From Bradyrhizobium sp. WBAH42 (GTDB taxonomy: Bacteria > Pseudomonadota > Alphaproteobacteria > Rhizobiales > Xanthobacteraceae): a stretch of DNA of 64,000 bases. A model generated the notes under the pieces. It made no database searches. It worked only from the letters and a program-made list of their open reading frames with translations, and was not told the origin of the DNA. A program made the translations under genes and the position numbers. Below, in pieces: positions 36,642-64,000 of this stretch; the stretch's first letter is position 1, and each line of letters begins with the position of its first letter. The DNA lies in assembly GCF_024585265.1 (NCBI RefSeq), contig NZ_CP036533.1, forward strand, positions 6,519,001 through 6,583,000. The letters run 5' to 3'.

Positions 36642-36816
36642 ATCCCGCCCAGGCTAGAAGCATGCGGAGGAATTGTGCCGTTGACGGACGGCCGGAAAAT
36701 GCGCTTGAGCAACTGGGGCCTACCGACTGCGGCGTCTCGTTCTTGATCACGTTCAAACCTGGCAGCTTGGGCATAGAGTAGGCCAAGCCCCGTGTGCGGG
36801 GGTGGAGCGCGCTCGT
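36642..36816. other. Intergenic stretch
   Basis: Between glcG-like gene and the broken antidote gene. It contains a small hairpin (CCCCGTGTGCGGGG, about 36787-36800) but no T-run and no convincing gene. Confidence 0.4.
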
Positions 36817-48711: not shown

Positions 48712-48840
48712 TCAGAGCCTGGAATCCGGATCGAGCCGGCCCGCGCCGGTTTGCCGGTCGGCCCAAGCCAAAGCTACGGCGAACGCGACGAAGATCGCGA
48801 CGACGATAACGGTCACCAGCAACGCGTCAGCAGGCATCAT
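48712..48840 (-). CDS. Small single-helix membrane protein under an FNR box
   Basis: A 42-residue protein starting at tandem ATGs (48840 and 48837) with a strong ribosome binding site GGGAGGGG directly upstream. MMPADALLVTVIVVAIFVAF is followed by AVALAWADRQTGAGRLDPDS: one transmembrane helix and a short charged tail. An FNR/FixK-type box lies with its centre 58.5 bases upstream of the start. It sits between the two Crp/Fnr genes. Size and setting recall small CcoQ/CydX-type accessory subunits of oxidases, but nothing proves it. Confidence 0.75.
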   Translation of the reverse strand: MMPADALLVTVIVVAIFVAFAVALAWADRQTGAGRLDPDSRL

Positions 48841-48891: not shown

Positions 48892-48905
48892 TTGATCGGG
48901 ATCAA
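48892..48905 (-). promoter_or_regulatory. FNR/FixK box (TTGAT-N4-ATCAA)
   Basis: A perfect match to the FNR/FixK consensus, TTGATCGGGATCAA. On the minus strand it lies upstream of the 42-residue protein; an A/T-rich -10-like hexamer (AAATAA) lies about 31 bases downstream of the box centre, the class II activation geometry. Confidence 0.85.
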
Positions 48906-48932
48906 ATTGCCGCGAGCGTCGCGGACAGGAGG

Positions 48933-49646
48933 TCAGGCTGCGGCGATGGCCTCGACGCGAGCGGGATCGAGCAGGCTGATGCCGCCGTGAATGATCTCGA
49001 TCAAGCCGAGACGCTCCAGCTTGGTAAAGGTGCGGCTGACGGTCTCGATGGTCAGGCCGAGATAATCGGCAATGTCCTGGCGGCTCATCGGAAGCGCGAC
49101 GATGTCGGACGGACCCTTGAGCGCGACCAGCCGCTCACGCCAGCCGAGCAAAAAAGTCGCGACCTTCTCGTCGGCCGAGCGGCGGCCGAGCAGAACCATA
49201 TGGTCGCGCGCCTGACTCAACTCGCGAATGGCCAGCTCGTTGATGCGCCTGAGCAATTGCGGCCGCTCTTCGGTGAAGCGGCCGAATGGCCCTTTTGGGA
49301 ATTGGCACACGTTCACCCCGCCGATCGCATCGGCCGAAAAATTGTGCCGGCCGGACAGATTCATCCCCAGGAAATCACCGGGCAAGGCAAAGCCGACGAT
49401 TTGCCGCCGGCCGTCGGGCAGCAGCTTGTAAAGCCGCATGACGCCTTCGAGGACGTTGTAGAACGAGGTCGTGATGTCCTCCTCGGAAAACACGGTCTCG
49501 CCCGAATCAAAATGGACGCGGCGGCCGAGATGCTCGAACTCCCGGAGTTCGGCTGCATCGAGCGACGAGCAGACCGCCGCTCCGCGCACGGCACAATCGT
49601 CGCAAAAATGCCCGTTCGGCTCACTCGTGACCACGGAAGGCTTCAT
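48933..49646 (-). CDS. FNR-type oxygen-responsive regulator (FixK1/FnrN-like)
   Basis: A 237-residue protein. Cysteines 15, 18 and 26 (HFCDDCAVRGAAVC) plus Cys114 in GGVNVCQFPKG form the FNR [4Fe-4S] ligand set. The HTH SRQDIADYLGLTIETVSRTF holds the E-x2-S-R pattern that reads TTGAT. Such proteins activate genes at low oxygen. I set the start at ATG 49646, where GGGGGAG lies 6 bases upstream; the open frame goes on to 49817 but would place the FNR box inside the gene. It is divergent from a cytochrome c gene and shares a box with it. Confidence 0.88.
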   Translation of the reverse strand: MKPSVVTSEPNGHFCDDCAVRGAAVCSSLDAAELREFEHLGRRVHFDSGETVFSEEDITTSFYNVLEGVMRLYKLLPDGRRQIVGFALPGDFLGMNLSGRHNFSADAIGGVNVCQFPKGPFGRFTEERPQLLRRINELAIRELSQARDHMVLLGRRSADEKVATFLLGWRERLVALKGPSDIVALPMSRQDIADYLGLTIETVSRTFTKLERLGLIEIIHGGISLLDPARVEAIAAA

Positions 49647-49730
49647 CCACCGCTCCCCCGCATCGGCCGCTCCCGACGTCAGGCCGAGTCCACCGCGCGG
49701 CTGCATTTTACTGCACCGAGCCGCAGCCGA

Positions 49731-49744
49731 TTGACCCAGATCAA
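49731..49744. promoter_or_regulatory. FNR/FixK box between the regulator and cytochrome c genes
   Basis: TTGACCCAGATCAA, one base from consensus. Its centre lies 64.5 bases before the cytochrome c start; CATATT lies 29 bases downstream of the centre on the plus strand. It also lies 91.5 bases upstream of the FNR-type gene start, so it may serve autoregulation. Confidence 0.8.
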
Positions 49745-49801
49745 ATTTGAGCGGCATCGCCGTCATATTCTGCTTCCACGGTTCGACGGGATCATGTTTC
49801 C

Positions 49802-50119
49802 ATGCTGCAAAGCGCACTGCGCCACGGCCTGATTGGGCTGCTTCTGATCACGCCTGCGCTAGCGGCCCCGACCGCCGAACAACGCGGCAAGGCTTTTGCC
49901 CGAGCCAATTGCGCACGCTGTCACGCGATCGACCGTGCCTCCAAGAGCCCACTCGAGATCGCACCTCCGCTACGCAACCTGCATCGGCGCTATCCGATCA
50001 ACAGCCTTGGCGAAGCGCTGGCCGAGGGGATCTCCACCGGACATTCCGACATGCCGACCTTCGAGCTCAGCCCGGACCAGATCCACGACCTGCTGTCCTA
50101 CCTGAAGACGCTGGAATAG
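49802..50119 (+). CDS. Small periplasmic cytochrome c
   Basis: A 105-residue class I cytochrome c with a signal peptide (MLQSALRHGLIGLLLITPALA). The heme site is NCARCHAID (C-x2-CH) and the distal methionine is in SDMPTFELSPD. The mature protein is about 84 residues. It would carry electrons in the periplasm, perhaps to a high-affinity oxidase. An FNR/FixK box upstream suggests induction when oxygen is low. Confidence 0.9.
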   Translation: MLQSALRHGLIGLLLITPALAAPTAEQRGKAFARANCARCHAIDRASKSPLEIAPPLRNLHRRYPINSLGEALAEGISTGHSDMPTFELSPDQIHDLLSYLKTLE

Positions 50120-50125
50120 TCGGCC

Positions 50126-51229
50126 TCACACCGCCTTCACGGTCCACCCGATCAGTTCCTTCGCGATGCGTGCGAAGGCCGCATCGAATGCGGCGACTGA
50201 AGCGGCCGGATCGACCTTGTCGAGCTTTTCGCTGGTCTCGATGAGCCGCGATGCGATCACCTTGCCGTTCTTGTCGACGATCCGCGCCGACAATCCGATC
50301 TCGGCCCGAGCCTCCCCATCCGTCGCGATCCGAAAGCGCCGGATGTCGATCAGGAGCTGGTAATCCGCCGGCCCGAGATCCGTCGTGCGCAGCGGGGCGT
50401 GGGCGATGTCGTAGTTCTCGAAACTGTCGATCAGGCGTGCCTGCACCAGCTTCGGAATGCTGTCAGCCCAGAGGAAGTCCGCAAAGCCCGGCCTGTCCCC
50501 GCTGGGCGCGAACAGCATGCGCTGGGTCTGCAGCATCGCCACCGCCGTCGGCTCGGGAATTGCCAGTGAGGCGGACAGCGTCTTGCCGGCTGGCCCGAGA
50601 TTCTGCGGCGTGCGCAGGTCGTAGGTGACCTTCTGCGCGGGCGTGCCGCCTCCGGTCATCTTGTCGAGGCCCGCCAGGATGCCGTCGATCTTGCCGGTGT
50701 TGCGCGCGAGGCCGTCGGAGAAGGTCTTGAAATTGGCGATGGTGTCCTTCAGCGGGCCGGAATTGTCCTGAAGCACCGTGTCGACCCGCCGCAGCGCATC
50801 CCGCGCCGCTTGCGTCATGCTCTGGCCGGCTCCGGCCTCCGCGATCAAGGTCGGCAGCTCGCCGGACCTGGCGACGATCACGCCGCCCTCCAACGTCACC
50901 ACGGGAACGCCGGTCAGGCCCTGGAATTCGAGCCCGACCTTGGTGTCGGCACGCACCGGCGTCGCCGTTGCAACCGAGATCGTGGCATTGACGAAGCGCG
51001 GGTTATCGGGCGCGAGCCCGAGCTGGGTGACCTCCCCGACCCGAATGCCGTTGAACAGCACGCCGGCGCCGACCAGGAGGCCGGGCACCGGCCCCTGGAA
51101 TTGCACGTGATAGTTCGTGCGCGGACCGATGCCGCCAGTGTTGTTCAGCCAATAGACGAAGCCGAACACCGCGACGATCGAGGCCAGCACGAAACTGCCG
51201 ATCAGCACATAGGGAGCGCGGGTTTCCAT
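50126..51229 (-). CDS. MlaD-domain protein fused to a PqiC-like domain
   Basis: A 367-residue protein. After an N-terminal membrane helix (YVLIGSFVLASIVAVFGFVYWL) comes an MCE/MlaD domain with VQFQGPVPGLLVGAGVLFNG and IRVGEVTQLGL. From about residue 210 the sequence matches the ABC-type transport auxiliary lipoprotein family (PqiC/YmbA): YDLRTPQNLGP, TAVAMLQTQRML, WADSIPKLVQARLIDSFEN, YQLLIDIRRFRI. In most bacteria this is a separate lipoprotein; here it has no lipobox and is fused. It belongs to the lipid-transport operon with the ATPase and permease genes upstream. Confidence 0.83.
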   Translation of the reverse strand: METRAPYVLIGSFVLASIVAVFGFVYWLNNTGGIGPRTNYHVQFQGPVPGLLVGAGVLFNGIRVGEVTQLGLAPDNPRFVNATISVATATPVRADTKVGLEFQGLTGVPVVTLEGGVIVARSGELPTLIAEAGAGQSMTQAARDALRRVDTVLQDNSGPLKDTIANFKTFSDGLARNTGKIDGILAGLDKMTGGGTPAQKVTYDLRTPQNLGPAGKTLSASLAIPEPTAVAMLQTQRMLFAPSGDRPGFADFLWADSIPKLVQARLIDSFENYDIAHAPLRTTDLGPADYQLLIDIRRFRIATDGEARAEIGLSARIVDKNGKVIASRLIETSEKLDKVDPAASVAAFDAAFARIAKELIGWTVKAV

Positions 51230-51232
51230 CTC

Positions 51233-52000
51233 TCATCTCATCTCGTGTTGCAGCATCTGCGAGCGCTTGCCGTGGAAATAGGCGCGCACCCAGGGATGCT
51301 CGGATTGCAGCAATTCGCGCATCGGGCCGATCGCCACGATCTTGCCGTCGGCGAGCGCGGCGACGCGGTCGCAGACCGTGGTCAGGCTCGCGAGGTCATG
51401 GGTCACCATGAACACGGTGAGCTCCAGGGTCTTTTGCAGCGTCTTGATCAGCGCGTCGAACTCGCCGGCGGCGATCGGGTCGAGGCCCGAGGTCGGCTCG
51501 TCCAGGAACAGGATCGGCGGATCGAGTGCGAGCGCGCGCGCCAGCGCCACGCGCTTGGTCATGCCGCCGGACAGCTCCGCCGGATATTTGTCGGCGTCCT
51601 CGGCACGCAGACCGACCATTTCGAGCTTGGCGATCGCGATCTCGTCCATCAGCTCCTGCGACAGGACGAGATTTTCGCGCAAGGGAAACTGGACGTTCTG
51701 ACGCACCGTCAGCGAGGAGAACAGCGCGCCCTGCTGGAACAGGATGCCCCAGGCCATCGCCGCGCCTCGGCCGTGGCCGCCGGTGGGTTGTCCCATGACC
51801 TCGATGGTCCCGCTCCGGCGCGGGATGAGGCCGATGATGGTCCGCATCAAGACCGACTTGCCGCCGCCGGATGCGCCCACCAGCCCGAGAATCTCGCCGC
51901 GGCGGACGTCGAGCGACAGATGGTCGAGCACGGTCTGACGACCGAAGCCGACCACGAGATCGCGGACGCGGATCGCGAACTGATCTTGCGATTCTTCCAT
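51233..52000 (-). CDS. Mla-type lipid ABC transporter ATPase (MlaF-like)
   Basis: A 255-residue ABC ATPase with Walker A GASGGGKSVLMRTI, signature ELSGGMTKRVALARALA, Walker B PILFLDEPTSGLDP and the switch histidine in FMVTHDLASL. ATG 52000 was chosen, 2 bases after the permease stop codon. It couples ATP hydrolysis to phospholipid transfer between membranes. It is followed 3 bases later by the MlaD-type gene. Confidence 0.92.
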   Translation of the reverse strand: MEESQDQFAIRVRDLVVGFGRQTVLDHLSLDVRRGEILGLVGASGGGKSVLMRTIIGLIPRRSGTIEVMGQPTGGHGRGAAMAWGILFQQGALFSSLTVRQNVQFPLRENLVLSQELMDEIAIAKLEMVGLRAEDADKYPAELSGGMTKRVALARALALDPPILFLDEPTSGLDPIAAGEFDALIKTLQKTLELTVFMVTHDLASLTTVCDRVAALADGKIVAIGPMRELLQSEHPWVRAYFHGKRSQMLQHEMR

Positions 52001-52002
52001 CG

Positions 52003-53172
52003 TCACATTCCGATCGAGGCAAAGAAGATAGCGAACAGGCCGTCGAGCACGATCACCAGGAAGATCGATTTCACCACCGACGTCGTGGTCTGCCGCCCCA
52101 GCGACTCCGCGCTGCCCTTGACGCGCAATCCCTCGCTGCAGGCCACGATCCCGATCACCAGCGCCATGAACGGCGCCTTCAGGATGCCCACCTCGAAATG
52201 CGCGACGGAAACGGCCTCGTGCAGCCGCGCGATGTAGATCGCCGGCCCCATGTCGCCGTAGAATTGCGCGACCAGCCCGCCGCCATAGAGCGCAGCAATC
52301 GATCCGATGAAGGTCAGGATGGGCAGCGCAATGACCAGGGCCGCGACGCGCGGCAGGATCAGGACGTCGATGGGATCGAGCCCCATGGTCGAGAGTGCGT
52401 CGATCTCCTCGCGCATCTTCATCGAGCCGAGCTCTGCTGTGTAGGCGCTGCCTGACCTGCCGGCGACCATGATGGCGACGATCAGCACGCCGAGCTCGCG
52501 CAGCACCAGGATGCCGACCATGTCGACCGTATACGACTCCGCGCCGAATCTGCGGAAGTGGAAGAAGCCCTGCTGCGCGATAATGGCGCCGATCAGGAAG
52601 GTGATCAGCGTGACGATGGGGATCGCCTGCCAGCCGATGCGATAGAGCTGATACACCAGCGAGGTCAGCCGCAGCGAACGCGGCCGGCGCAGCACGCCGA
52701 CGACGGCCATGAACAAGGCGCCGAGCATCTGAAGGAAGATCGTGATGTCTTCCCGCGCCCCGACCGTGGACTTGCCGAGTTCGCCCAGCCTCGCCAGAAC
52801 CGGATTGGGCGCAGCGCTTGGAGCCGGCGTGCGACGGTTGACCTGGCGCACCTCGTCCATCAGCCCGCTGAAATGATCGGCGACGCCGACGAACTCGGCC
52901 AACCTGCCTGACGATGCGGCCCTGCGCGACAGCTTCTCCAGGACCCAGGCGCCGAGCGTATCGAGCGCGCTGATCCCCGACATGTCCAGCGTTACGACGC
53001 GCGAGCGATCGACGTCGGCCCCGACCGACCGCGACAGCGTCTCGAGCGTCACCACGTTCGCGGCGGTCCATGGCCCCTCGGGGCGCAATTTCAGCACGTC
53101 GCCGGACGGCGTCGCGTGCAGCAGCGGTTCGTGGTTCACGCTTTCCACCTCGTCGGGACAATTGGTCCCCAT
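52003..53172 (-). CDS. MlaE-type permease with N-terminal STAS domain
   Basis: A 389-residue protein. Residues 1-110 form a STAS-like domain (SRVVTLDMSGISALDTLGAWVLEKL). The permease core follows: PIVTLITFLIGAIIAQQGFF, LRELGVLIVAIMVAGRSGSAYTAELGSMK, MREEIDALSTMGLDPIDVLILPR, and the final CSEGLRVKGSAESLGRQTTTSVV. The fused STAS domain replaces a separate MlaB. GTG 53139 is an alternative start. Promoter may share the box at 53246 with the divergent DUF883 gene. Confidence 0.9.
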   Translation of the reverse strand: MGTNCPDEVESVNHEPLLHATPSGDVLKLRPEGPWTAANVVTLETLSRSVGADVDRSRVVTLDMSGISALDTLGAWVLEKLSRRAASSGRLAEFVGVADHFSGLMDEVRQVNRRTPAPSAAPNPVLARLGELGKSTVGAREDITIFLQMLGALFMAVVGVLRRPRSLRLTSLVYQLYRIGWQAIPIVTLITFLIGAIIAQQGFFHFRRFGAESYTVDMVGILVLRELGVLIVAIMVAGRSGSAYTAELGSMKMREEIDALSTMGLDPIDVLILPRVAALVIALPILTFIGSIAALYGGGLVAQFYGDMGPAIYIARLHEAVSVAHFEVGILKAPFMALVIGIVACSEGLRVKGSAESLGRQTTTSVVKSIFLVIVLDGLFAIFFASIGM

Positions 53173-53245
53173 TCAGCCGGCATTTCTAGGCCGGCATGTG
53201 GCGGCCGGATTGACCTGTCTCAAGACCCCGAACGGGCTCCGCCTC

Positions 53246-53259
53246 TTGACGCAAATCAA
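53246..53259 (+). promoter_or_regulatory. FNR/FixK box upstream of the DUF883 gene
   Basis: TTGACGCAAATCAA. Its centre lies 63.5 bases from the start at 53316, with CTTAGG 30 bases downstream of the centre. It also faces the divergent lipid-transport operon, 80 bases from that start. Confidence 0.75.
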
Positions 53260-53315
53260 GCGCGATCGCGCGGGCGGGTCTTAGGCTCGCTCGGATGCAA
53301 TGAGGACACCAATCC

Positions 53316-53591
53316 ATGTTCGACAGTGACAGGATGAGCGAGGAATTACGGGCGCTGAAGGTCGACGTCACGCGCCTGTTGAGCACCGCCGGCGAGGAGA
53401 TGTTCGAGAGCTCGAAAGCTCGCACCGAAGCGCTCGCCGATCAGATCAGGGCCGCGCTCGCCGAGCTCGGCGAGACCGTCGAACAAGAGGGGGAGCAGCT
53501 CCAGGGCCTCGTTGCGGAGCGCCCGATCACCTCGCTCGCCTCCGCTTTCGCGCTGGGCGTGGTCGTCGGCTTCATGCTGAGGAGACACTAG
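53316..53591 (+). CDS. DUF883/ElaB-like membrane-anchored protein
   Basis: A 91-residue protein: a long amphipathic helical region (ELRALKVDVTRLLSTAGEEM and onwards) ending in a glycine-rich tail anchor PITSLASAFALGVVVGFMLR plus RH. This is the layout of the ElaB/YqjD/DUF883 family, ribosome-binding or stress-linked inner-membrane proteins. The stop codon directly abuts the start of the next gene. Confidence 0.83.
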   Translation: MFDSDRMSEELRALKVDVTRLLSTAGEEMFESSKARTEALADQIRAALAELGETVEQEGEQLQGLVAERPITSLASAFALGVVVGFMLRRH

Positions 53592-54080
53592 GTGAATACC
53601 GAGAATGTCATCAAACATCTGCGCGTGCTGTGGCGCACCGACAGGATCATCGCGGACATCAGGCTGCGCCATTTGCTGATCGGCCTCGGCCTGCGCGCCT
53701 TCGCGGCGCTGATCGCCGCGTTCGGGCTCCTGATGCTGGAGCTGTCCGCCTATTTCGCGCTGGTGCAGATCTGGAGCGCGATTGCCGCGGCCGCCATCCT
53801 CGGCGCCGTCAATTTCGTCATCGCGGCCGCTCTCTTCCTGATCGCTGGCCGCGCCCCGTCGGGACGCGACATCGAGCTCGCCAGCGAAATTCATGACACG
53901 TCCATCGAAGCCCTCCAGCTCGAGGCACGAGCGCTCCAGGCCCAGGTGTCAGGCGCGGTGCATCATCCGCTCAGCACCATCGTGCCGGTGCTGCTGCCGC
54001 TGATCGCGGTCATCATCAAGACTCTGCGGACGACGGCCAGGACGCCAAACGACGCAAGTTCGGCCGAAGCGCAATCGTAG
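53592..54080 (+). CDS. Phage-holin-superfamily (YqjE-like) membrane protein
   Basis: A 162-residue protein starting at GTG 53592. Two hydrophobic helices (LGLRAFAALIAAFGLLMLEL and AAAAILGAVNFVIAAALFLI) follow an N-terminal cytoplasmic part, and a third hydrophobic stretch (STIVPVLLPLIAVIIKTL) lies near the C-terminus. In E. coli and alphaproteobacteria YqjE-type genes follow YqjD/DUF883 genes, as here. A membrane-stress role is likely; phage origin is not implied. Confidence 0.75.
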   Translation: MNTENVIKHLRVLWRTDRIIADIRLRHLLIGLGLRAFAALIAAFGLLMLELSAYFALVQIWSAIAAAAILGAVNFVIAAALFLIAGRAPSGRDIELASEIHDTSIEALQLEARALQAQVSGAVHHPLSTIVPVLLPLIAVIIKTLRTTARTPNDASSAEAQS

Positions 54081-54089
54081 CTGACGCGC

Positions 54090-56783
54090 TCAGAGCTTCA
54101 GCCTGACGTCGCAGATTTCAGGCTCGGCCGGGTCCGGCTTGACCTCGAAGCCGAGCTGCCGGCACATGTCGAGCATCACGGTGTTCTCCTGCAGCACGTC
54201 GCCCGATATGGTCTTCAAGCCCTCCGACCGCGCGTAGTCGATGATCAGCTGCATCAGGGCCCAGCCGAGCCCCCTGCCCTTGAGGTCGGATCGCAGCAGG
54301 ATCGCGTATTCGCCGGTCTCGTAGATCGAGTCGGAATGGAGCCGGACCACGCCGACCATTTCGCCGGTGGCCTCGTCGAACGCGATGAAGGCCATCGCAC
54401 GCGCATAGTCGAGCTGGGTCAGGCGTGCGATGAATTCGTGGGTGAACTCCTTCATCGGGGCGAAGAAGCGCAGGCGAAGGTCGTGCGCCGTGACGTGACG
54501 CAGGAATTCGTGGATGGTCGGCTCGTCCTCGGGACGCAGGGGCCGGACCAAGATGCGCCAATCGTCCTTGAGCTTGAGGCGCCGCTCCCATTGCGACGGA
54601 TAGGCGCGAACGGCGAAATTGGCAGGGCCAGAGCCGGCGAACTTCCGCTGCGGCGGCGCGACCGCGACGCGCGCATCTACCGCGGTCACGCCGGTTTCGT
54701 CCGCCAGCAACGGATTGATGTCGAATTCGCGGATCTCGGGAATGTCGGCCGCCATCTGCGCCAGCTTGACCAGCACCATGGCGACGGCATCCTGCTTGAC
54801 CGCCGGCACGTCGCGATAGGCCTTTAGCAGCCGCGACACACGCGTGCGGTCGATCAGATCGCGAGCCAGTTGCAGGTCGAGCGGCGGCAGCGCCAGCGCC
54901 TTGTCGTTGATGATCTCCACCGCCGTGCCGCCGCGGCCGAAAACGACCACCGTGCCGAAGGTCGGATCGTCGGCGAGACCAAGGATCAGCTCACGCGCCT
55001 TTGCCTTGACGACCATCGCCTGGACGATGACGCCGCCGATGCGGGCCTCGGGCCGCAGCTTTCTGGCTCGCGCAAGAATGTCCGTGGCCGCCGCACGCAC
55101 GGCCTCCGGGGTCGTCAGATTGAGCACGACGCCGCCGACGTCGGATTTGTGGGTGATGTCCCGCGACAGGATCTTCAGGACGACGGTGCCACCTTGCGCG
55201 AAGATGTCCTTTGCATAGGTCACCGCCCGCTCGACATCGGCTGCCGCATAGGTCGGCACCATCGCGATGTCGTAGGCTTCGAGCAGGTGCTTGATCTCGA
55301 CAGGCTCGAGCCACTGGCGGCCGTCCGCGATCGCGGCCGTGACGATCTCTCTTGCCCCCCTGGCATCCGGAACGAACGTATCGGGCATCGCGGGAGGGAC
55401 CTGGCTCAGCTCCTCCACCACTTCGCGGTGCCGGACCAGATGCATGAAGCCGCGCACGGCATCGTCCTCGGTCGGATAGTTCGGCACGCCGGCGCTCGAG
55501 AGTGCCTGGACGATGTGCTGATCGGCGCCGACCCAGGCCGCCAGCACGGGCTTTGCCCATCGGCGGTGCTGCTCGCGATACTTAGCCACGAGCTCCGTCA
55601 CGGTCTTGGCGATCTCGGCGGCCGATGCGATTGCCGTCTGCACGTTGAGGACGAGAACTGCGTCGTTGTCGCGGTCGGCCAGCAGTTCCTCCAGCGCCGC
55701 CGCGTAGCGCGAGGCGTCGGCGTCGCCCACGATGTCGACGGGGTTTGCACCCGACCAGGTCGGCGGCAGCGCCGCATCGAGCTTCCTGCGCGTATCGGTC
55801 GAGATGGTTGCCGGAATACCTCCGAGCTCGACCAATCGATCGACCGCAAGGACCCCGATGCCGCCACCATTGGTCAGGATGGCGAGACGCTTCCCGGTCG
55901 GCGATTCGACGCGGCCGAGTGTCTCGGCACAATCGAACAACTCGCGCAGATCGGACACCCGCAGCACACCCGCGCGGCGGAACGCCGCATCATAGACGGC
56001 GTCGGCACCGGCGAGCGCCCCGGTATGCGTGGCGGCGGCCTTCGCACCCTGAGCCATCCGGCCGGACTTCACCACGACGACCGGCTTCACGCGTGCGGCC
56101 GCGCGCGCCGCCGACATGAATTTGCGCGCGTCCTTGATCGCCTCGATGTAGAGCAGGATCGCGCGGGTCTTGTGATCCATCGCGAAATGATCGAGCAGAT
56201 CGGCAATGTCGACGTCGATCTGATCGCCGATCGAGACGACGCCGGAGAAGCCGACGCCGCGCTGCGCGGCCCAATCCACCATGCCGGCGGCAATGGCGCC
56301 CGATTGCGAGATCAGCGCGAGGTTGCCGGCCCGCGGCATGTGCGCGGCGAAACTGGCATTCAGGCTGACGCCCGGCATCATGATGCCGAGGCAGTTCGGT
56401 CCGATCAGCCGCATTCCGTGTTTGCGCGCGGCAGCGCTGGTCGCCTCGTGCAGCGATCCCGGTCCCTGGCCGAGACCCGCCGAGACGATCAGCGCCCCCG
56501 CAGACCCGCGGCGCCCGGCCTGGTCGACGATGCCTGGTATCTCACCCGCGGGCGCGGTGATGACGACGAGCTCGGGCACGAAGTCCAGCCTGTCCAGGCT
56601 CTTCACCGCCGCGATGCCGCCGATCTCGGCATGACGTGGATTGACGAGGCCAAACCTCCCCTTGAATCCGCCCTTGCCAATGTTCTCCAGGACCGCGCGT
56701 CCCACCGACGCTGGACGCGCGCTCGCGCCGACGAGCGCGACCGAGCGCGGCGACAGCAGGTTGTTCAGACGATAAGTCGACAT
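54090..56783 (-). CDS. Acyl-CoA synthetase (NDP-forming) fused to GNAT acetyltransferase
   Basis: An 897-residue protein. From the N-terminus: a CoA-binding domain (VALVGASARPASVGRAVLEN), a succinyl-CoA-synthetase-like domain with LISQSGAIAAGMVDWAAQRG and ATHTGALAGADAVYDAAFRRAG, an ATP-grasp domain (KILSRDITHKSDVGGVVL, GVIVQAMV, GRGGTAVEI), and a C-terminal GNAT domain (LRSDLKGRGLGWALMQLIID). This is the layout of protein acetyltransferase Pat/AcuA-like proteins. They make or sense acyl-CoA and acetylate lysines of metabolic enzymes. It lies 63 bases after the USP gene and is probably co-transcribed with it. Confidence 0.9.
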   Translation of the reverse strand: MSTYRLNNLLSPRSVALVGASARPASVGRAVLENIGKGGFKGRFGLVNPRHAEIGGIAAVKSLDRLDFVPELVVITAPAGEIPGIVDQAGRRGSAGALIVSAGLGQGPGSLHEATSAAARKHGMRLIGPNCLGIMMPGVSLNASFAAHMPRAGNLALISQSGAIAAGMVDWAAQRGVGFSGVVSIGDQIDVDIADLLDHFAMDHKTRAILLYIEAIKDARKFMSAARAAARVKPVVVVKSGRMAQGAKAAATHTGALAGADAVYDAAFRRAGVLRVSDLRELFDCAETLGRVESPTGKRLAILTNGGGIGVLAVDRLVELGGIPATISTDTRRKLDAALPPTWSGANPVDIVGDADASRYAAALEELLADRDNDAVLVLNVQTAIASAAEIAKTVTELVAKYREQHRRWAKPVLAAWVGADQHIVQALSSAGVPNYPTEDDAVRGFMHLVRHREVVEELSQVPPAMPDTFVPDARGAREIVTAAIADGRQWLEPVEIKHLLEAYDIAMVPTYAAADVERAVTYAKDIFAQGGTVVLKILSRDITHKSDVGGVVLNLTTPEAVRAAATDILARARKLRPEARIGGVIVQAMVVKAKARELILGLADDPTFGTVVVFGRGGTAVEIINDKALALPPLDLQLARDLIDRTRVSRLLKAYRDVPAVKQDAVAMVLVKLAQMAADIPEIREFDINPLLADETGVTAVDARVAVAPPQRKFAGSGPANFAVRAYPSQWERRLKLKDDWRILVRPLRPEDEPTIHEFLRHVTAHDLRLRFFAPMKEFTHEFIARLTQLDYARAMAFIAFDEATGEMVGVVRLHSDSIYETGEYAILLRSDLKGRGLGWALMQLIIDYARSEGLKTISGDVLQENTVMLDMCRQLGFEVKPDPAEPEICDVRLKL

Positions 56784-56846
56784 GAAAACAAATGCACCGC
56801 CTCGGCGGCGGTTCCGATGATTGACGATCCGGCTGGAAGAAGAGGC

Positions 56847-57680
56847 CTAGTGCGAGATCATAACCCAGCACGGTGGCTGGCCAATGACGGTCTTTGTCAC
56901 ACCGCCCCACACGATCTCGTTCAGGCGCGAATGATGATAGGCGCCCATCACGATGGCATCGATACCATGGGAATTCGCCCAGCTTCCCAGTACTTTGCCG
57001 GTCGAGCTGCCACCCCCCTTCGTGGTTTCGAACGAGGCAAAGACGCCGTGTTCCCGCAAATGGTCGACGAGTGCCGCTCCGGATTGCAGGACCGCGTCAG
57101 TCTTGTCCTCCGCTACGGTCAGCACACGAACCGAGGTGGCAGCCTGAAGAATGGGCAACGCATCTCCCGCCGCACGCGCGGCCCGTGCGGAATGATCCCA
57201 GGCAATCACGACGTTCTCGAATTCGGGCCGGAGCTCGTCGGCGCGATGTTCGGGACAGAGCAGAAGCGGCCGTCCGGATTCGAACAACAACGCTTCGATG
57301 ATGGCCTCCGTTCGACTGTCGTGCGGCTTCACGGGAACCAGCGTGAGGTCGCTGAAGCGAGCGTGCTCGGCCAGGATCGCTCCGATCTGATCCGCGGGCA
57401 CCTTGCCCGACCGGCTCTGGGCGCGGATGTTGGCGCGGGAAGCCGCATTGGTGAAGGCATTCAGCAGCTGCTGCATGTCGCTGGCCTCGAGGCTGGCCTG
57501 CGCGGAAGCGCGATCGTCAGGCAACATCACTTTCGGCCGCTCGAAGACATCTTCCTCGAGCGCAAGCGCGGTGATCCTGGCGCCGAGATCGGCGGCCACA
57601 GCAACGCATTTCTCGATCGCAACCAGGGCTGGCCCGCGCGGCTGGCCGACAAGGGGCAGAAACACATCCTTGATGGGCAT
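56847..57680 (-). CDS. Tandem universal stress protein
   Basis: A 277-residue protein with two USP domains. The first begins KDVFLPLVGQPRGPALVAIE. The second begins ENVVIAWDHSARAARAAGDALP and keeps the USP C-terminal ATP-binding pattern DAIVMGAYHHSRLNEIVWGG followed by VTKTVI. Proteins with this double domain help cells survive oxygen or energy limitation. It is the first gene of the operon with the acyl-CoA synthetase/GNAT gene. An FNR box lies 54.5 bases upstream. Confidence 0.88.
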   Translation of the reverse strand: MPIKDVFLPLVGQPRGPALVAIEKCVAVAADLGARITALALEEDVFERPKVMLPDDRASAQASLEASDMQQLLNAFTNAASRANIRAQSRSGKVPADQIGAILAEHARFSDLTLVPVKPHDSRTEAIIEALLFESGRPLLLCPEHRADELRPEFENVVIAWDHSARAARAAGDALPILQAATSVRVLTVAEDKTDAVLQSGAALVDHLREHGVFASFETTKGGGSSTGKVLGSWANSHGIDAIVMGAYHHSRLNEIVWGGVTKTVIGQPPCWVMISH

Positions 57681-57727
57681 CGGAATTCTCCTGAGCCACC
57701 ATCATAGGCCGGCTGTCGTCGAGACCC

Positions 57728-57741
57728 TTGATCCGCGTCAA
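57728..57741 (-). promoter_or_regulatory. FNR/FixK box upstream of the USP operon
   Basis: On the plus strand TTGATCCGCGTCAA. The centre lies 54.5 bases from the USP start, and CCTATG lies 29 bases downstream of the centre on the minus strand. Confidence 0.8.
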
Positions 57742-57782
57742 GACCGGGGGAAACTCCGTCCGATCAACCGGGCGAACCGGCG

Positions 57783-57796
57783 TTGACCGACGTCAA
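57783..57796 (+). promoter_or_regulatory. FNR/FixK box upstream of the alcohol dehydrogenase operon
   Basis: TTGACCGACGTCAA. The centre lies 69.5 bases from the start at 57859 and CTATGG lies 30 bases downstream of the centre. Confidence 0.8.
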
Positions 57797-57858
57797 GGAC
57801 TGGCCACTCGGTCGTTCTATGGATAGTTCAATCGGAGCGGTTCGCCCCGGAGACAGAC

Positions 57859-58842
57859 ATGCGTGCGATGGTGTTGCCGGCCCCACGAGCGCGGCTCCAG
57901 ATGGAGGAGCGGGCTGACCCCCTGCCGGGCGAGGGTCAGATCCGGGTGAAGATTAGCGCCTGCGGTGTATGCCGGACCGATCTTCATCTCGTCGACGCCG
58001 AGCTGCCCGGCATCCGCTATCCGATCGTGCCTGGCCACGAGATCGTCGGCCGGGTCGACCTCATCGGTGCGAGTGTGACGACACATGCGCCTGGTGATCG
58101 GGTCGGCATTCCCTGGCTCGGCTTCACCTGCGGAACATGCCGCTTCTGCCGGGAGGGCATGGAAAACCTCTGTGACGCGCCGCTGTTCACCGGCTACACG
58201 CGTGACGGCGGCTACGCGACCCACACTATCGCCGACGCACGTTACGCTTTTCCGCTCGGCGAGGCCGGCAGCGACGTGGAGATTGCGCCTCTGCTGTGCG
58301 CGGGGCTGATCGGCTGGCGCTCGCTGGTCCTGGCCGGCCCCGCCGAGAGGCTCGGCCTCTATGGCTTCGGCGCCGCCGGCCACATCATTGCGCAAGTCGC
58401 GGTTTGGCAGGGACGCTCCGTCCATGCATTCACGCGGGCAAGCGATGCCGCTGCACAAGACCTTGCACGCCGTCTCGGCGCTGTCTGGGCGGGGTCATCG
58501 GACCAGATGCCCGACGAGCCGCTTGACGCCGCGATCATCTTCGCACCAGCCGGCGAGTTGGTCCCGGCGGCGTTGCGTGCCGTGCGCAAAGGCGGTCGCG
58601 TTGTCTGCGCTGGCATCCACATGAGCGACATTCCGAGCTTTCCGTATGATTTGCTGTGGCAGGAGCGGCAGCTTGTCTCGGTCGCCAATTTGACCCGGCA
58701 GGATGGCCTCGATTTTCTCAAGGTCGCGCCGCAAGCCGGCGTGCGCACCGAGACGACGGCGTTTCCGCTCGATCAGGCCAACGAGGTCCTGGCCATGCTG
58801 CGGAATGGCCAGATCCTCGGCGCGGCCGTGCTGACGCCCTGA
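57859..58842 (+). CDS. Zinc-dependent alcohol dehydrogenase
   Basis: A 327-residue MDR-family protein. Catalytic zinc ligands are in CGVCRTDLHLVD and PGHEIVGRV, structural zinc ligands in CGTCRFCREGMENLC. The Rossmann motif is LYGFGAAGHIIAQVA. It would interconvert an alcohol and an aldehyde with NAD(P). It starts an operon with a kinase and a CHAD protein; the next gene starts on the last base of its stop codon. The FNR box suggests a fermentative or redox-balancing role. Confidence 0.9.
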   Translation: MRAMVLPAPRARLQMEERADPLPGEGQIRVKISACGVCRTDLHLVDAELPGIRYPIVPGHEIVGRVDLIGASVTTHAPGDRVGIPWLGFTCGTCRFCREGMENLCDAPLFTGYTRDGGYATHTIADARYAFPLGEAGSDVEIAPLLCAGLIGWRSLVLAGPAERLGLYGFGAAGHIIAQVAVWQGRSVHAFTRASDAAAQDLARRLGAVWAGSSDQMPDEPLDAAIIFAPAGELVPAALRAVRKGGRVVCAGIHMSDIPSFPYDLLWQERQLVSVANLTRQDGLDFLKVAPQAGVRTETTAFPLDQANEVLAMLRNGQILGAAVLTP

Positions 58843-60404
58843 TGGTGCTTCCCATGTCCGCTTCGATGAAGGATGACACGGCGGCTCAGGAGCGCATCTT
58901 TCGGATGCTGATCGATCATCCCGGCGTGAGGCGCATCGACACGCATGCCGCCTCGGTGTTCCTGGACGCAAAACGCGCACTGAAGATCAAGCGCGCCGTC
59001 CGGTTTCCCTTCCTCGACTATTCGACGCTCGAAAAGCGCAAGGCGGCCTGCGAGGAGGAGATCCGCATCAATCGGCCCCTGGCGCCGCAGATCTATCATG
59101 GCGTCGTGGCGATCACGGAAGAGCCGGATGGATCGGTGAAGGTCGACGGCGTCGGACGGCCGATCGAGTATGCTGTCGAGATGTCGCGCTTCGACGAAAG
59201 CAGAACGCTGGATCATCTGGCCAAGGCCGGCCCGCTTGATGCGAAGCTTGCCGCGGCCGCCGCCGACGCGATCGCGGCTTCGCACGTGGCGGCGATACAG
59301 GCCGACGGGAAAGCGTGGGTCTCCTCCATCCCGGCCCTGATCGACGGCAACACGGATGGTCTGCGGGCCGGCGGACATTTCGGCGCAGAGGAGGTCGAGC
59401 AACTCTGCAAGGCCTCGCACACGGCCTATCTGCGTATTCGCGCCCTGCTCGCAGAGCGCGGCCGCCGGGGCTTCGTGCGCCGCTGCCATGGCGATCTGCA
59501 TCTGGCAAACATCGTCATGATCAATGATCGGCCCGTGCTGTTCGACGCGATCGAGTTCGACGCGCAGATGGCGACGGTCGACGTGCTCTACGATCTCGCA
59601 TTCACGCTGATGGACCTGTTGCAGCATCATCAGCCGGGCGCGGCAAACATGGTGCTGAACCGCTATCTCGCCGTGACGCCGGCCGACAATCTCGACGCGC
59701 TCTCGACCCTGCCGCTGTTCATGTCGATCCGGGCGGCGATCCGCGCGCAGGTTAGCTTGGCGCGGCTCAAGCGGACGCATTCCGACGGTCCCGGCATTCT
59801 CGACCAGGCACGACGCTATTTCGAGCTCGCAGGGATGCTGATCCGTCCTTCTGCGCCGCGCCTGATTGCGGTGGGCGGACTGTCCGGCACCGGAAAGTCC
59901 GCCTTGGCGCACGCGCTCGCGCCGGTCGTCGCACCGGAGTCGGGCGCCGTCGTGCTGCGTAGTGATCTCGTCCGCAAGCAGATGTTCGGGGTCGAGGACA
60001 CCCACCGCCTGCCGCCTTGGGCCTACACGCCGGAGGTCACGGCCCGCGTCTACGACACGCTGGTGCAGCATGCCCGGCGGGTGCTGGCGCAGGGCCATTC
60101 GGCGATCATCGACGGCGTCTTCGCTCGCGAGGACGAACGCGACGCAATCGCCGTGCTGGCGCGCGAGCGCAACGTGGCGTTGAACGGGCTGTTCCTGGTC
60201 GCGGACCTTGCGACCCGGCAGGCGCGCATCGGCAACCGTCGGGAAGACGCATCGGATGCCACGCCGGAGGTTGCCGCGCTGCAAGAGCACTATAATATCG
60301 GCCATGTCGGCTGGGCGATCATCGATGCTTCCGGGACACAAGAGCAGACGCTTCAGAACTGCCGAAGCGCCATCGCTGAGGGGCAAACAAGGCAATCAGA
60401 CTGA
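58842..60404 (+). CDS. APH-like kinase fused to P-loop ATPase (AAA_33)
   Basis: A 520-residue protein with two enzyme-like parts. The first, about residues 1-330, has an APH-type catalytic loop RRCHGDLHLANIVM and metal segment VLFDAIEFDAQM. The second, from about residue 340, is a P-loop kinase with IAVGGLSGTGKSALAHALA (Walker A), VLRSDLVRKQMFG and QGHSAIIDGVFAREDERD. Together they resemble gluconate/adenylylsulfate-kinase-like proteins that often accompany stress regulons. ATG 58842 overlaps the stop of the dehydrogenase gene (TGATG). Substrate unknown. Confidence 0.83.
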   Translation: MVLPMSASMKDDTAAQERIFRMLIDHPGVRRIDTHAASVFLDAKRALKIKRAVRFPFLDYSTLEKRKAACEEEIRINRPLAPQIYHGVVAITEEPDGSVKVDGVGRPIEYAVEMSRFDESRTLDHLAKAGPLDAKLAAAAADAIAASHVAAIQADGKAWVSSIPALIDGNTDGLRAGGHFGAEEVEQLCKASHTAYLRIRALLAERGRRGFVRRCHGDLHLANIVMINDRPVLFDAIEFDAQMATVDVLYDLAFTLMDLLQHHQPGAANMVLNRYLAVTPADNLDALSTLPLFMSIRAAIRAQVSLARLKRTHSDGPGILDQARRYFELAGMLIRPSAPRLIAVGGLSGTGKSALAHALAPVVAPESGAVVLRSDLVRKQMFGVEDTHRLPPWAYTPEVTARVYDTLVQHARRVLAQGHSAIIDGVFAREDERDAIAVLARERNVALNGLFLVADLATRQARIGNRREDASDATPEVAALQEHYNIGHVGWAIIDASGTQEQTLQNCRSAIAEGQTRQSD

Positions 60405-61387
60405 TGCGGGCAAGTAAGTCGCGACCGACCACGCGCTCGACGGCAAACGCGCATGCCAAGCCGGCCACGCGGCGTAACGCGCTGCCGGCCCGACTCAGCC
60501 CCGGCATGGCCTGCGACACGGCCTTCCGGATCATCGCCCGCCGTCACCTCGACGCTGTGATCGCTCAGCACGACGGCACCTGCCGCGGCGATCCCGATGC
60601 GCTGCACCAGATCCGGATCGCACTGACGCATCTGCGGACTGCCATCCGCTTCTTCTCGCCGATGGTCGACGATGCGCTGCGGCCGGATGTCTGGGCCGAA
60701 CTGAAATGGCTGAACGGTCAGCTCGGCATGGTGCGGGACCTCGACGTGGCCATCGAGCGGATCGTCGCGGAGAGTGGCACCGAGCTCGCCGTGGTCGCCG
60801 AGCTTCAGCGCTGGGACGAGAAGCGCGCGGAGAGTCACCGGCTGCTGGCGCGCGCGCTGCAATCGGCGCGGTATCGCCGCCTGGTCGAGCAAACCTCAAC
60901 GTGGATCGAAACCGGCCCCTGGTCGACCCGCCGCAGCAAGGACGCCATCCGGCTGCGCCGCCGCACCCTCGCCGACCACGCGACGGAGCGGCTGACCGAG
61001 TGGGAGACGACGCTGCTCAAGAAGGCCCGGAAGCTGAAAAAGCTCGATGTCGAGAAACGTCACAAGCTGCGCCTCCTCAACAAGCGGATGACCTATTCGG
61101 TCGAGTCGCTTGCGGATCTGTTCGCCGATGGCGCGGCGAAACAGAAGTCCATCCTCAAGCAATTGCGCAAGGCACAACGGTCGCTCGGACAATTGAACGA
61201 CGATGCACGCGGACAGGCGTTGGCGGCATCGTTGAATGGCGCCGGCCTCGAGGCCAGCAATCGATTCCTCGATCGCAAGCGGGAAAAGAAGCTGTTGCGG
61301 AAGGCCTCGGAGGCCTACCGCAAATTGGACAAGACCAAACCGTTCGGCTCTTCGGATCTCGCGCCGAGTTCGGAGCCGGAAGCTTAG
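60404..61387 (+). CDS. CHAD-domain protein
   Basis: A 327-residue, very basic helical protein. The CHAD signature is DPDALHQIRIALTHLRTAIRFF with its conserved histidines and arginines, later LRRRTLADHATERL and RHKLRLLNKRMTYSVESLADL. CHAD proteins bind polyphosphate and locate to polyphosphate or PHA granules in several bacteria. Its ATG overlaps the stop of the kinase gene, and its end overlaps the convergent PHA synthase-like gene by 4 bases, so the two genes are tightly packed. Confidence 0.9.
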   Translation: MRASKSRPTTRSTANAHAKPATRRNALPARLSPGMACDTAFRIIARRHLDAVIAQHDGTCRGDPDALHQIRIALTHLRTAIRFFSPMVDDALRPDVWAELKWLNGQLGMVRDLDVAIERIVAESGTELAVVAELQRWDEKRAESHRLLARALQSARYRRLVEQTSTWIETGPWSTRRSKDAIRLRRRTLADHATERLTEWETTLLKKARKLKKLDVEKRHKLRLLNKRMTYSVESLADLFADGAAKQKSILKQLRKAQRSLGQLNDDARGQALAASLNGAGLEASNRFLDRKREKKLLRKASEAYRKLDKTKPFGSSDLAPSSEPEA

Positions 61388-63210
61388 GTGTGGACGTAGT
61401 CTCCCGGCGCATCGGGCAGGCCGAGAGCACCGCCAAGCCCGATCTGCGGGGGATCGCAGGGCGCACCGGAGCGCGCTGACAGCCAAGTGGCCCATTCAGG
61501 CCACCACGAGCCTTCGACGCGCGGGGCGAGCTTCAGCCATTCGTCCGCACCGACATAGGGCGCGTCAGCAGCCTTGGTCAGCACCTGATAAAAGTGGCCC
61601 TCCTCCTGCGGAGGCGCGACGACGCCGGCATTGTGGCCGCCGCTGGTCAACAGGAACGTCACGTCGGCATCGACCTGATAATGGATCTTGTAGACGGATC
61701 GCCACGGCGCGACGTGATCGGCGAGCGTGCCGACCACGAACATGGGCGTGTGAATGTCGGACAGCGAGACGCTCCTGCATTCGACCCGATAGCGACCTTC
61801 CGCCAGATCGTCGTTCAGGAACAGCTGGCGCAGATACTCCGAGTGCATGCGATAGGGCAGCCGCGTGGCGTCGGCATTCCAGGCCATCAGGTCGCTCGGT
61901 GGCGAACCGTCGCCCATCAGATAGTCACGCGAGAGCCGCGACCAGATCAGCTCGTTGGAGCGCAGCAGCTGGAATGCGCCGGCCATCTGTGTCGTGTCGA
62001 GATAGCCGCGCTGCCACATCATGTCTTCGAGGAAGGCAACCTGGCTCTCGTTAATGAACAGCGTCAATTCTCCGGCCTCGGTGAAATCGGTTTGCGCGGC
62101 GAGAAGCGTGACGGTGCCGAGACGGCTGTCGCCGTCGCGCCCCATGGCCGCCGCGGCGATCGACAGCAACGTGCCGCCAAGACAATAGCCGAGTGCATGG
62201 ATCTTCCGGCCCGGCACGATCTGGCCGATCATGTCCAGTGCGGCCATCACGCCCAGCTTGCGGTAGTCGTCGAAGGCAACATCCCGATCGTTCGCGTCCG
62301 GATTGCGCCAGGAGATTACGAAGACGGTGAAGCCCTGAGCGGTCAGGTATTTGACCAGGGAATTCTGCGGCGACAGGTCGAGGATGTAGTACTTCATGAT
62401 CCAAGCCGGCACGATCAGAATCGGCTCCGGCCGCACCTGCGCAGTCGTCGGATGATACTGGATCAGCTCGATCAGGCTGTTGCGGTAGACGACCTTGCCG
62501 GGCGAAGCCGCCACCGTCTTGCCGACGACGAACTGATCCTCGTCGGCCAGCTTCGAGCCGGAGAGCAGGCGCATCAGGTCGCTGCACCAGTTTTGCCAGC
62601 CGAACACGAAATTCTCGCCGCCGCTCTGGAACGCTTTTTCCAGAACCTGCGGATTGGTGGCCGCGAAGTTCGAGGGTGCCAGCATGTCGAGCATCTGGCG
62701 CATCGAGAACTCGACGATGGCTTCGTTTGCGTGGGACACGCCGCGTATGCCGGTCGTGGCATCGTGCCACCAACGTTCGGTGAGCAGAAACGCCTGCGCA
62801 AGCAGATTGAACGGCGCGGCTTCCCATTGCCGGTCCTTAAAGCGGCGATCCCGCCCCTGCGGCCGAATGACGGACCACGGCTCCTGCGATGGCGCGCGCG
62901 CGGCGGCCTCCAGGAGGCGGCCGGAATCGCGGAAGATGTTGCGGGAGAGCTCCATCTGATGCTGAGGCGCCGCCGCAAGATGCGCGCCCCAATCGAGCCA
63001 GGCGAGCGACAAGGCCACGGGCGAGATCCCGCCCGTGAACCGCGCCAGCATGGCATGGAACGCGCGATCAAGCGGATAGGTATCCGTTGCTTGCGGGCAA
63101 GTGCAGTCAGCCGGCGTCCCTGCGACCCTTTCGGGAATCTCGGCAGCTGGCCTGGCCGCGGGAGCTTGCAGCGGCGCTTCGGCCCGTGGAAATATCTTCA
63201 CGACGCTCAT
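61384..63210 (-). CDS. Class I PHA synthase-like protein
   Basis: A 608-residue alpha/beta hydrolase. The PhaC lipase-like box is ALGYCLGGTLLS, with Cys343 as nucleophile. The family's conserved parts are ILIVPAWIMKYYILDLSPQN, GFTVFVISWRNPD and, near the C-terminus, TSGGHNAGVVAPP. The N-terminal 90 residues hold a cysteine-rich, proline-rich extension. Related PhaC paralogues join (R)-3-hydroxyacyl-CoA into polyester or act on short chains. An FNR-like box lies 74.5 bases upstream, so it is probably used at low oxygen. Confidence 0.87.
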   Translation of the reverse strand: MSVVKIFPRAEAPLQAPAARPAAEIPERVAGTPADCTCPQATDTYPLDRAFHAMLARFTGGISPVALSLAWLDWGAHLAAAPQHQMELSRNIFRDSGRLLEAAARAPSQEPWSVIRPQGRDRRFKDRQWEAAPFNLLAQAFLLTERWWHDATTGIRGVSHANEAIVEFSMRQMLDMLAPSNFAATNPQVLEKAFQSGGENFVFGWQNWCSDLMRLLSGSKLADEDQFVVGKTVAASPGKVVYRNSLIELIQYHPTTAQVRPEPILIVPAWIMKYYILDLSPQNSLVKYLTAQGFTVFVISWRNPDANDRDVAFDDYRKLGVMAALDMIGQIVPGRKIHALGYCLGGTLLSIAAAAMGRDGDSRLGTVTLLAAQTDFTEAGELTLFINESQVAFLEDMMWQRGYLDTTQMAGAFQLLRSNELIWSRLSRDYLMGDGSPPSDLMAWNADATRLPYRMHSEYLRQLFLNDDLAEGRYRVECRSVSLSDIHTPMFVVGTLADHVAPWRSVYKIHYQVDADVTFLLTSGGHNAGVVAPPQEEGHFYQVLTKAADAPYVGADEWLKLAPRVEGSWWPEWATWLSARSGAPCDPPQIGLGGALGLPDAPGDYVHT

Positions 63211-63277
63211 GGCTGATTGTTCCTGCGGGCTTCCGTTCTAGGCCTGCGGCAGGATATGGCGACGCTGCCGCCGCGCG

Positions 63278-63291
63278 TTGAGCTGCATCAA
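63278..63291 (-). promoter_or_regulatory. FNR/FixK-like box upstream of the PHA synthase gene
   Basis: On the plus strand TTGAGCTGCATCAA (on the minus strand TTGATGCAGCTCAA): one half-site deviates by one base. CATATC lies 29 bases downstream of the centre on the minus strand. Confidence 0.65.
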
Positions 63292-63338
63292 ATCGCTGCG
63301 CGGATCACAATCGGTCAGTCAGGGCAAGCTTCGTCCGC

Positions 63339-63352
63339 TTGACCTGGGTCAA
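63339..63352 (+). promoter_or_regulatory. FNR/FixK box upstream of the CBS gene
   Basis: TTGACCTGGGTCAA. The centre lies 70.5 bases from the chosen start, with ACTAGG 29 bases downstream of the centre. Confidence 0.75.
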
Positions 63353-63415
63353 ACCACACCCCGACGGATTCACTAGGCTTTGCGCATTGAAGTTGACATG
63401 CCAGCGGAGTTGTCC

Positions 63416-64000
63416 ATGCGCGCCCACCAGATCATGACCCGATCGGTCATCTCGGTCACCCCCGACACCAGCATCGTCGAAGCGGCCAACATCATGCTGA
63501 AGCGACATGTCAGCGGCCTCACCGTAGTCGACGATACCGGCAAGCTGATCGGCGTGGTGTCGGAGGGAGATTTCATCCGCCGCAGCGAAATCGGCACCGG
63601 GCGCAAGCGCGGGCGGTGGCTGCGGTTCATCCTGGGTCCGGGCAAATCCGCCAGCGACTTCGTCCACGAGCACGGCCGCAAGGTCTCGGAAGTGATGACC
63701 GACTCGCCCGTGACCATCACGGAGGACACCGCGCTCGCGGAGATCGTCGATCTCATGGAGCGGAACAACGTCAAGCGGCTGCCGGTCGTGCGCGGCGACA
63801 AGGTCGTCGGGATCGTGTCCCGCGCCAATCTGTTGCAGGCGGTGGCGGGGCTGGCCCGCGACGTGCCGGATCCGACCGCCGATGACGATCACATTCGCAG
63901 CCGCATCATCGAGACCATGGAGAGGAACGATTGGTGCCCGTTCGGGCTGAACGTCATCGTGCGTGACGGGATCGTTCATCTCAGCGGCGTCATCACCGAA
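63416..64000 (+). CDS. CBS-pair protein with C-terminal BON-like domain (3' end outside window)
   Basis: The 195 visible codons start MRAHQIMTRSVISVTPDTSI with a first CBS motif (HVSGLTVVDDTGKLIGVVSE), then an inserted basic loop, then a second CBS motif (VSEVMTDSPVTITEDTALAE, NNVKRLPVVRGDKVVGIVSR). After residue 160 a BON-like segment begins (IIETMERNDWCPFGLNVIVR, VHLSGVITE). ATG 63416 was chosen because GGAG lies 6 bases upstream; ATG 63398 adds six residues. CBS pairs sense adenine nucleotides. The gene has its own FNR box and probably reports energy state at low oxygen. Confidence 0.87.
   Translation, partial: MRAHQIMTRSVISVTPDTSIVEAANIMLKRHVSGLTVVDDTGKLIGVVSEGDFIRRSEIGTGRKRGRWLRFILGPGKSASDFVHEHGRKVSEVMTDSPVTITEDTALAEIVDLMERNNVKRLPVVRGDKVVGIVSRANLLQAVAGLARDVPDPTADDDHIRSRIIETMERNDWCPFGLNVIVRDGIVHLSGVITE

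Follow-up and report, generated by a model that had tools for sequence, protein, structure and literature searches.

Conserved promoter elements and gene losses suggest a revised box-to-gene map for the FixK2-type fixK1-CBS locus of Bradyrhizobium sp. WBAH42

The gene island carried by a 64,000-nt stretch of the Bradyrhizobium sp. WBAH42 genome (hereafter the window) is very probably the Bradyrhizobium fixK1-cycS-mla-usp-adh-phaC2-CBS locus, a part of the FixLJ-FixK2 low-oxygen regulon, although binding and activation in this strain are deduced from sequence. Since its gene order and the printed induction and FixK2 data match, this is a locus described before in a close relative. The contribution of the present analysis is a clearer box-to-gene map, based on the conservation of -10 elements and on natural losses of genes. 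On this map it is likely that in three two-box pairs each gene owns a FixK2 box, that the far boxes printed for blr6074 and bsr6066 are wrong, and that the far bsr6066 box makes mlaEFD a direct target.

Clustering and conservation of the boxes

Our pattern scan found nine matches to TTGA-N6-TCAA in the window, compared with 0.40 expected from 100 shuffles (sd 0.59, maximum 2). Eight of the nine are inside the island, at 48892, 49731, 53210, 53246, 57728, 57783, 63278, and 63339. Seven of these, all in gaps between assigned genes, were found just where the earlier note had placed them, but it overlooked an eighth perfect box in the same island, TTGACCTGTCTCAA at 53210-53223, and along with it the mlaEFD operon in its list of faced genes. 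It had noticed no box in the first 47 kb, yet the core pattern is matched there at 36743, though the inner T..T of this site departs from the (T/C/G)..(A/G) form which the note had used.

This outlying site (36743-36756, TTGATCACGTTCAA) is flanked by two convergent ORFs in the mechanical ORF list. Of the matches listed, drawn from 115 of the 117 genomes of the genus, only the genome's own covers it.

The whole genome (8.29 Mb, one contig) contains 132 TTGA-N6-TCAA sites, which were listed with three sub-patterns, versus 25 for the reversed pattern. The densest 14.5-kb cluster among the 132 sites is that of the eight island boxes. When 132 sites were placed uniformly, at least seven within 14.5 kb were reached 0 times in 20,000, a null which is simple because functional sites cluster anyway. 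A second dense cluster, of eight sites in 40 kb, was observed at G000:C1:4208005-4238116, with a FixK-like paralogue at 4209811.

Conservation was analysed in the best 80 of 240 stretches encoding relatives, which come from related species and are not independent samples. The footprint consisted of the aligned intergenic stretches, for which nhmmer gave usable matches in 53, 57, 54, 64, and 46 of the 80 loci. Each of the eight boxes was intact in 91-100% of the aligned rows (46-64 of 80 loci), and the identity of the box cores was 0.96-1.00 versus a mean of 0.69-0.76 over the whole intergenic stretches. It is therefore extremely improbable that the island boxes are chance palindromes in intergenic DNA. 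The site at 36743, with its convergent ORFs and uncovered by the relatives' matches listed, does resemble such a palindrome, but the eight island boxes are enriched, clustered, associated with -10 elements, and conserved in their cores above the surroundings. Chance origin of these boxes was rejected on the shuffles, the uniform placements, and the conservation.

Gene order and regulators

Domain searches showed that the gene order matches that of bll6060-blr6074 in B. diazoefficiens, from fixK1 and cycS through to phaC2 and the CBS gene. The island begins with a 42-aa ORF whose translation resembles a small membrane protein (48712-48840, minus strand), fixK1 (48933-49646, minus strand; counterpart of bll6061, which is fixK1 in B. 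diazoefficiens), and a cycS-like cytochrome c gene (49802-50119, plus strand; Pfam Cytochrom_C; CycS is at 6062 there). An mlaD-like MCE gene, an mlaF-like ATPase gene, and an mlaE permease gene follow (50126-53172, minus strand; bll6063-6065 counterparts). The mlaE ORF opens at 53172, and translation could plausibly start from the GTG at 53139. The next genes are a bsr6066-blr6067-like pair (53316-54080, plus strand; a small protein without Pfam match and a weak holin-like match under the Pfam cut-off), a bll6068-like acyl-CoA ligase with a GNAT domain (54090-56783, minus strand; assigned by domain search and gene order), and a bll6069-like universal stress protein, usp (56847-57680, minus strand; assigned by Pfam and gene order). 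For the DUF883 label used in the earlier note, no Pfam match was present at E <= 1e-4. Genes for an alcohol dehydrogenase (adh), an APH/AAA kinase-like protein, and a CHAD protein (57859-61387, plus strand), a phaC2-like PHA synthase corresponding to bll6073 (61384-63210, minus strand), and a blr6074-like CBS-domain protein (63416-64000, plus strand, extending past the window end) were all assigned by Pfam.

In the table of PMC6515984, the microoxia-induced genes of B. diazoefficiens include bll6060 (CRP/FNR protein), bll6063 (MCE protein), bll6064 (ATPase), bll6065 (MlaE), bll6068 (GNAT/CoA ligase), bll6069 (universal stress protein), bll6073 (PhaC2), and blr6074 (CBS). Of these, bll6069, bll6073, and blr6074 are marked there as direct FixK2 regulon, and bll6060, 6063, 6064, 6065, and 6068 do not carry that mark in this table. 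PMC9104804 reports that expression of bsr6066, blr6067, phaC2, and blr6074 is lost without fixK2, with a 28- to 93-fold transcript drop for bsr6066, phaC2, and blr6074; that bsr6066-blr6067 is an operon; and that phaC2 was confirmed by in vitro transcription. FixK2 dependence of blr6070, blr6071, and blr6074 is given in PMC2908626. These data, microoxic induction of the matching gene order and FixK2 dependence of several members, agree with the oxygen-responsive FNR/FixK-box island proposed in the earlier note. The predicted core FixK regulon of Bradyrhizobiaceae (PMC2908626) counts among its members a cytochrome c, a CBS protein, a kinase, and a zinc alcohol dehydrogenase, as here, but it is genome-wide, unlike the promoter layout of a single cluster described here.

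The FNR-type protein encoded at 48933-49646 is FixK1 by position. As had been noted before, it carries the four conserved cysteines of an FNR-type oxygen sensor, which are found at 15, 18, 26, and 114. Among solved structures, FixK2 4i2o comes closest to it, with 121 bits. The genome's own FixK2 was located at about 3.408 Mb, 3.16 Mb from the island, and scored 467 bits to PDB 4i2o. It lies near a FixJ-like gene, with ccoN about 5 kb off, and an alignment of 171 positions gives it 40% identity with the island protein. A FixK2 encoded in the genome and boxes of the TTGA-N6-TCAA type upstream, two of the marks of a FixK2 regulon, were thus found.

The primary activator of the island boxes is most likely FixK2, encoded elsewhere, and not FixK1, the island protein which the earlier note had brought forward and which itself lies behind a box. 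That FixK1 is the main regulator, sensing oxygen via an iron-sulfur cluster, is very unlikely. Although it is encoded inside the island with its four cysteines, and according to PMC2908626 the recognition sequences of FNR- and FixK-type proteins are nearly identical, several of these genes are FixK2-dependent in print (PMC9104804 and PMC2908626), and fixK1 itself is listed under positive FixK2 control (PMC9104804). Furthermore, two related loci (L045 and L048) kept boxes with no FixK1 match in the stretch examined, though fixK1 could sit elsewhere in those genomes. As sole activator, the island regulator was rejected on the same printed FixK2 dependence. The boxes could also be used by the FixK-like paralogue at 4209811 or by NnrR/DNR-type proteins.

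Promoter direction

The -10 elements were counted only in rows with an intact box, as TA-initial hexamers whose centre is 29-31 bases away from that of the box. The chance of a TA-initial hexamer within three adjacent positions is about 4% (66 of 1566 places). A facing-direction -10 at 30-31 was kept in 41-56 rows per promoter for seven promoters of six boxes, which thus have class II spacing, while for the single-direction boxes among them the hexamer occurred in only 0-2 rows on the side pointing away from the gene. In the window, the hexamer of box 53246 is at 32, and box 48892 does not show the class II spacing.

The distances of 54.5 to 74.5 from box centre to facing start codon given in the earlier note were reproduced on re-measurement. 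Its class II spacing is backed by the conserved -10 elements, with an actual spacing of 30-32. Of its TA hexamers at 29-31, five of seven boxes have one towards the gene they face at a centre-to-centre distance of exactly 31, but that of 53246 is at 32 and box 48892 lacks any TA-initial hexamer at 28-32, having AATAAT at 32 instead.

Box 48892 (48892-48905, minus strand) faces the 42-aa ORF and was intact in 48 of 53 rows, with a TA-initial hexamer in 1/50 and 0/50 rows in the two directions. The ORF and this box agreed in 50 of 55 loci (both in 46, neither in 4), with the box only in three and the ORF only in two; this count omits L069, whose gap was too long to examine.

The box at 49731-49744, intact in all 57 rows, is predicted to be a two-way FixK2 box. 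A -10 element for fixK1, TAAAAT (49705-49710, minus strand), is centred 30 from its centre (56/57 rows), and one for cycS, TATTCT (49766-49771, plus strand), 31 from it (50/57 rows). The cytochrome gene had been named before as the gene faced by this box, and fixK1 is faced too. A single two-way FixK2 box for fixK1/cycS was reportedly described by Mesa et al. in 2008. At the nnrR/nnrS divergent promoter, which differs in its genes, one FixK2 box was active both ways in vitro (PMC6710368), and fixK1/cycS would presumably behave in the same way. The published start sites of nosR lie 40.5 bases away from a FixK2 box.

Between mlaE and bsr6066, the box facing mlaEFD (53210-53223, minus strand; intact in 51/54 rows) has the same letters as the one which PMC9104804 places at -105 of bsr6066, and its -10 element TAGAAA (53183-53188, minus strand) lies 31 from the box centre in the mlaE direction (51/53 rows). 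The box facing the bsr6066-like gene (53246-53259, plus strand; 53/54 rows) is followed by the -10-like TAGGCT (53282-53287, plus strand) at 32, and a hexamer at 29-31 was found in 16/53 rows. In the usp/adh pair, the usp box (57728-57741, minus strand; 63/64 rows) has TATGAT (57701-57706, minus strand; 56/63 rows) and the adh box (57783-57796, plus strand; 60/64 rows) has TATGGA (57818-57823, plus strand; 51/60 rows), each 31 from the box centre. In the third pair, the spacing is likewise 31 for TATCCT (63251-63256, minus strand; 41/44 rows) from the phaC2 box (63278-63291, minus strand; 44/46 rows), which is printed for both phaC2 and blr6074, and for TAGGCT (63374-63379, plus strand; 44/46 rows) from the box facing the CBS gene (63339-63352, plus strand; 46/46 rows).

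The boxes printed for bsr6066, phaC2, and blr6074 of B. diazoefficiens (PMC9104804) are those at 53210 and 63278 of the window, letter for letter. The footprints differ from that table: for the CBS gene and bsr6066 they point to the near boxes instead of the printed far ones, and they give mlaEFD a box of its own. In two related loci, L044 and L047, there is a single box between mlaE and bsr6066. Two aligned rows have hexamers at 31 on both sides of one box, as at fixK1/cycS, and we infer from their sequences that these rows are L044 and L047.

Natural gene losses and the box-to-gene map

Gene matches were called by tblastn at E <= 1e-8, 45% identity, and half length; because of these thresholds, no match is not proof of absence. 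The fixK1/cycS box was kept in six of six loci having fixK1 without an adjacent cycS match, and was present in two of three having cycS without fixK1. Where CBS had no PhaC match beside it, only the near box was left, in eight of eight loci (L025, L028, L040, L041, L045, L053, L055, and L061, all layout-checked), 72-73 bases from the start. L045 has a PhaC match elsewhere than beside CBS. Where PhaC had an adjacent CBS, two boxes within 250 bases were found in 38 of 40 cases and none in the other two. The class of PhaC "not adjacent" is inflated by PhaC matches with an unaligned first part, and its 21 CBS copies had one box in 10, two in eight, and none in three. Other PhaC copies (n=11, a count also affected by unaligned starts) had two boxes in two cases and none in nine. 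Five loci had odd layouts: L032 and L075 had no box, L063 and L067 had one, and L066, with two copies, had two and none. The nine loci with mlaE and no DUF883-type match gave a mixed result (one box in four, two in five).

Several side observations were made among the relatives. L041, titled Frankia sp. RB7, carries the Bradyrhizobium island with 89% protein identity, and this assembly is probably mislabelled or contaminated. In L015, L030, and L034, the CoA ligase-usp-CHAD part is accompanied by one or two boxes, and these loci gave no phaC, CBS, or mla matches; L042, L071, L072, and L073 have the ligase and no box. The island core may exist as separate copies.

It is unlikely that the two boxes of a pair act as a single joint complex, each of them serving the genes on both sides. 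Both boxes of every pair are conserved, the printed lists assign the far box to blr6074 and bsr6066 (PMC9104804), and the spacing is partly phased over all rows (R 0.60, 0.31, 0.65), which shared ancestry could cause. However, phasing is weak over distinct spacings (R 0.07, 0.10, 0.19), the pair spacing varies (23-81, 39-58, and 32-76, with zero in two collapsed cases), every -10 is linked to the nearer of the two boxes, and CBS without a PhaC match beside it keeps the near box alone. The joint arrangement was dropped as main model on the -10 linkage, the variable spacing, and the gene losses.

With one box for each paired gene, the proposed mechanism would be as follows. At low oxygen, FixL (its role here being presumed) and FixJ would induce fixK2, whose product would bind the TTGA-N6-TCAA boxes as dimers and activate RNA polymerase from the class II position, with 30-32 bases between the box centre and the centre of the downstream -10. 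One box would serve fixK1 and cycS in two directions, and mlaEFD/bsr6066, usp/adh, and phaC2/CBS would each use a pair of boxes pointing outward, so that every gene has its own. FixK1, made in the island, may act on these boxes as well and bring in direct oxygen sensing as a further layer.

The map thus offers a testable correction of two printed box-to-gene assignments and one added direct-target prediction: mlaEFD, microoxia-induced and off the direct-target list printed in PMC6515984, is predicted to be a direct FixK2 target. In our literature searches, no paper linked mlaEFD to FixK2. The finding is tied to a known regulon important for low-oxygen life in soil and nodules. If the prediction is true, low oxygen would directly reset envelope lipid traffic through the mlaEFD lipid-transport operon.
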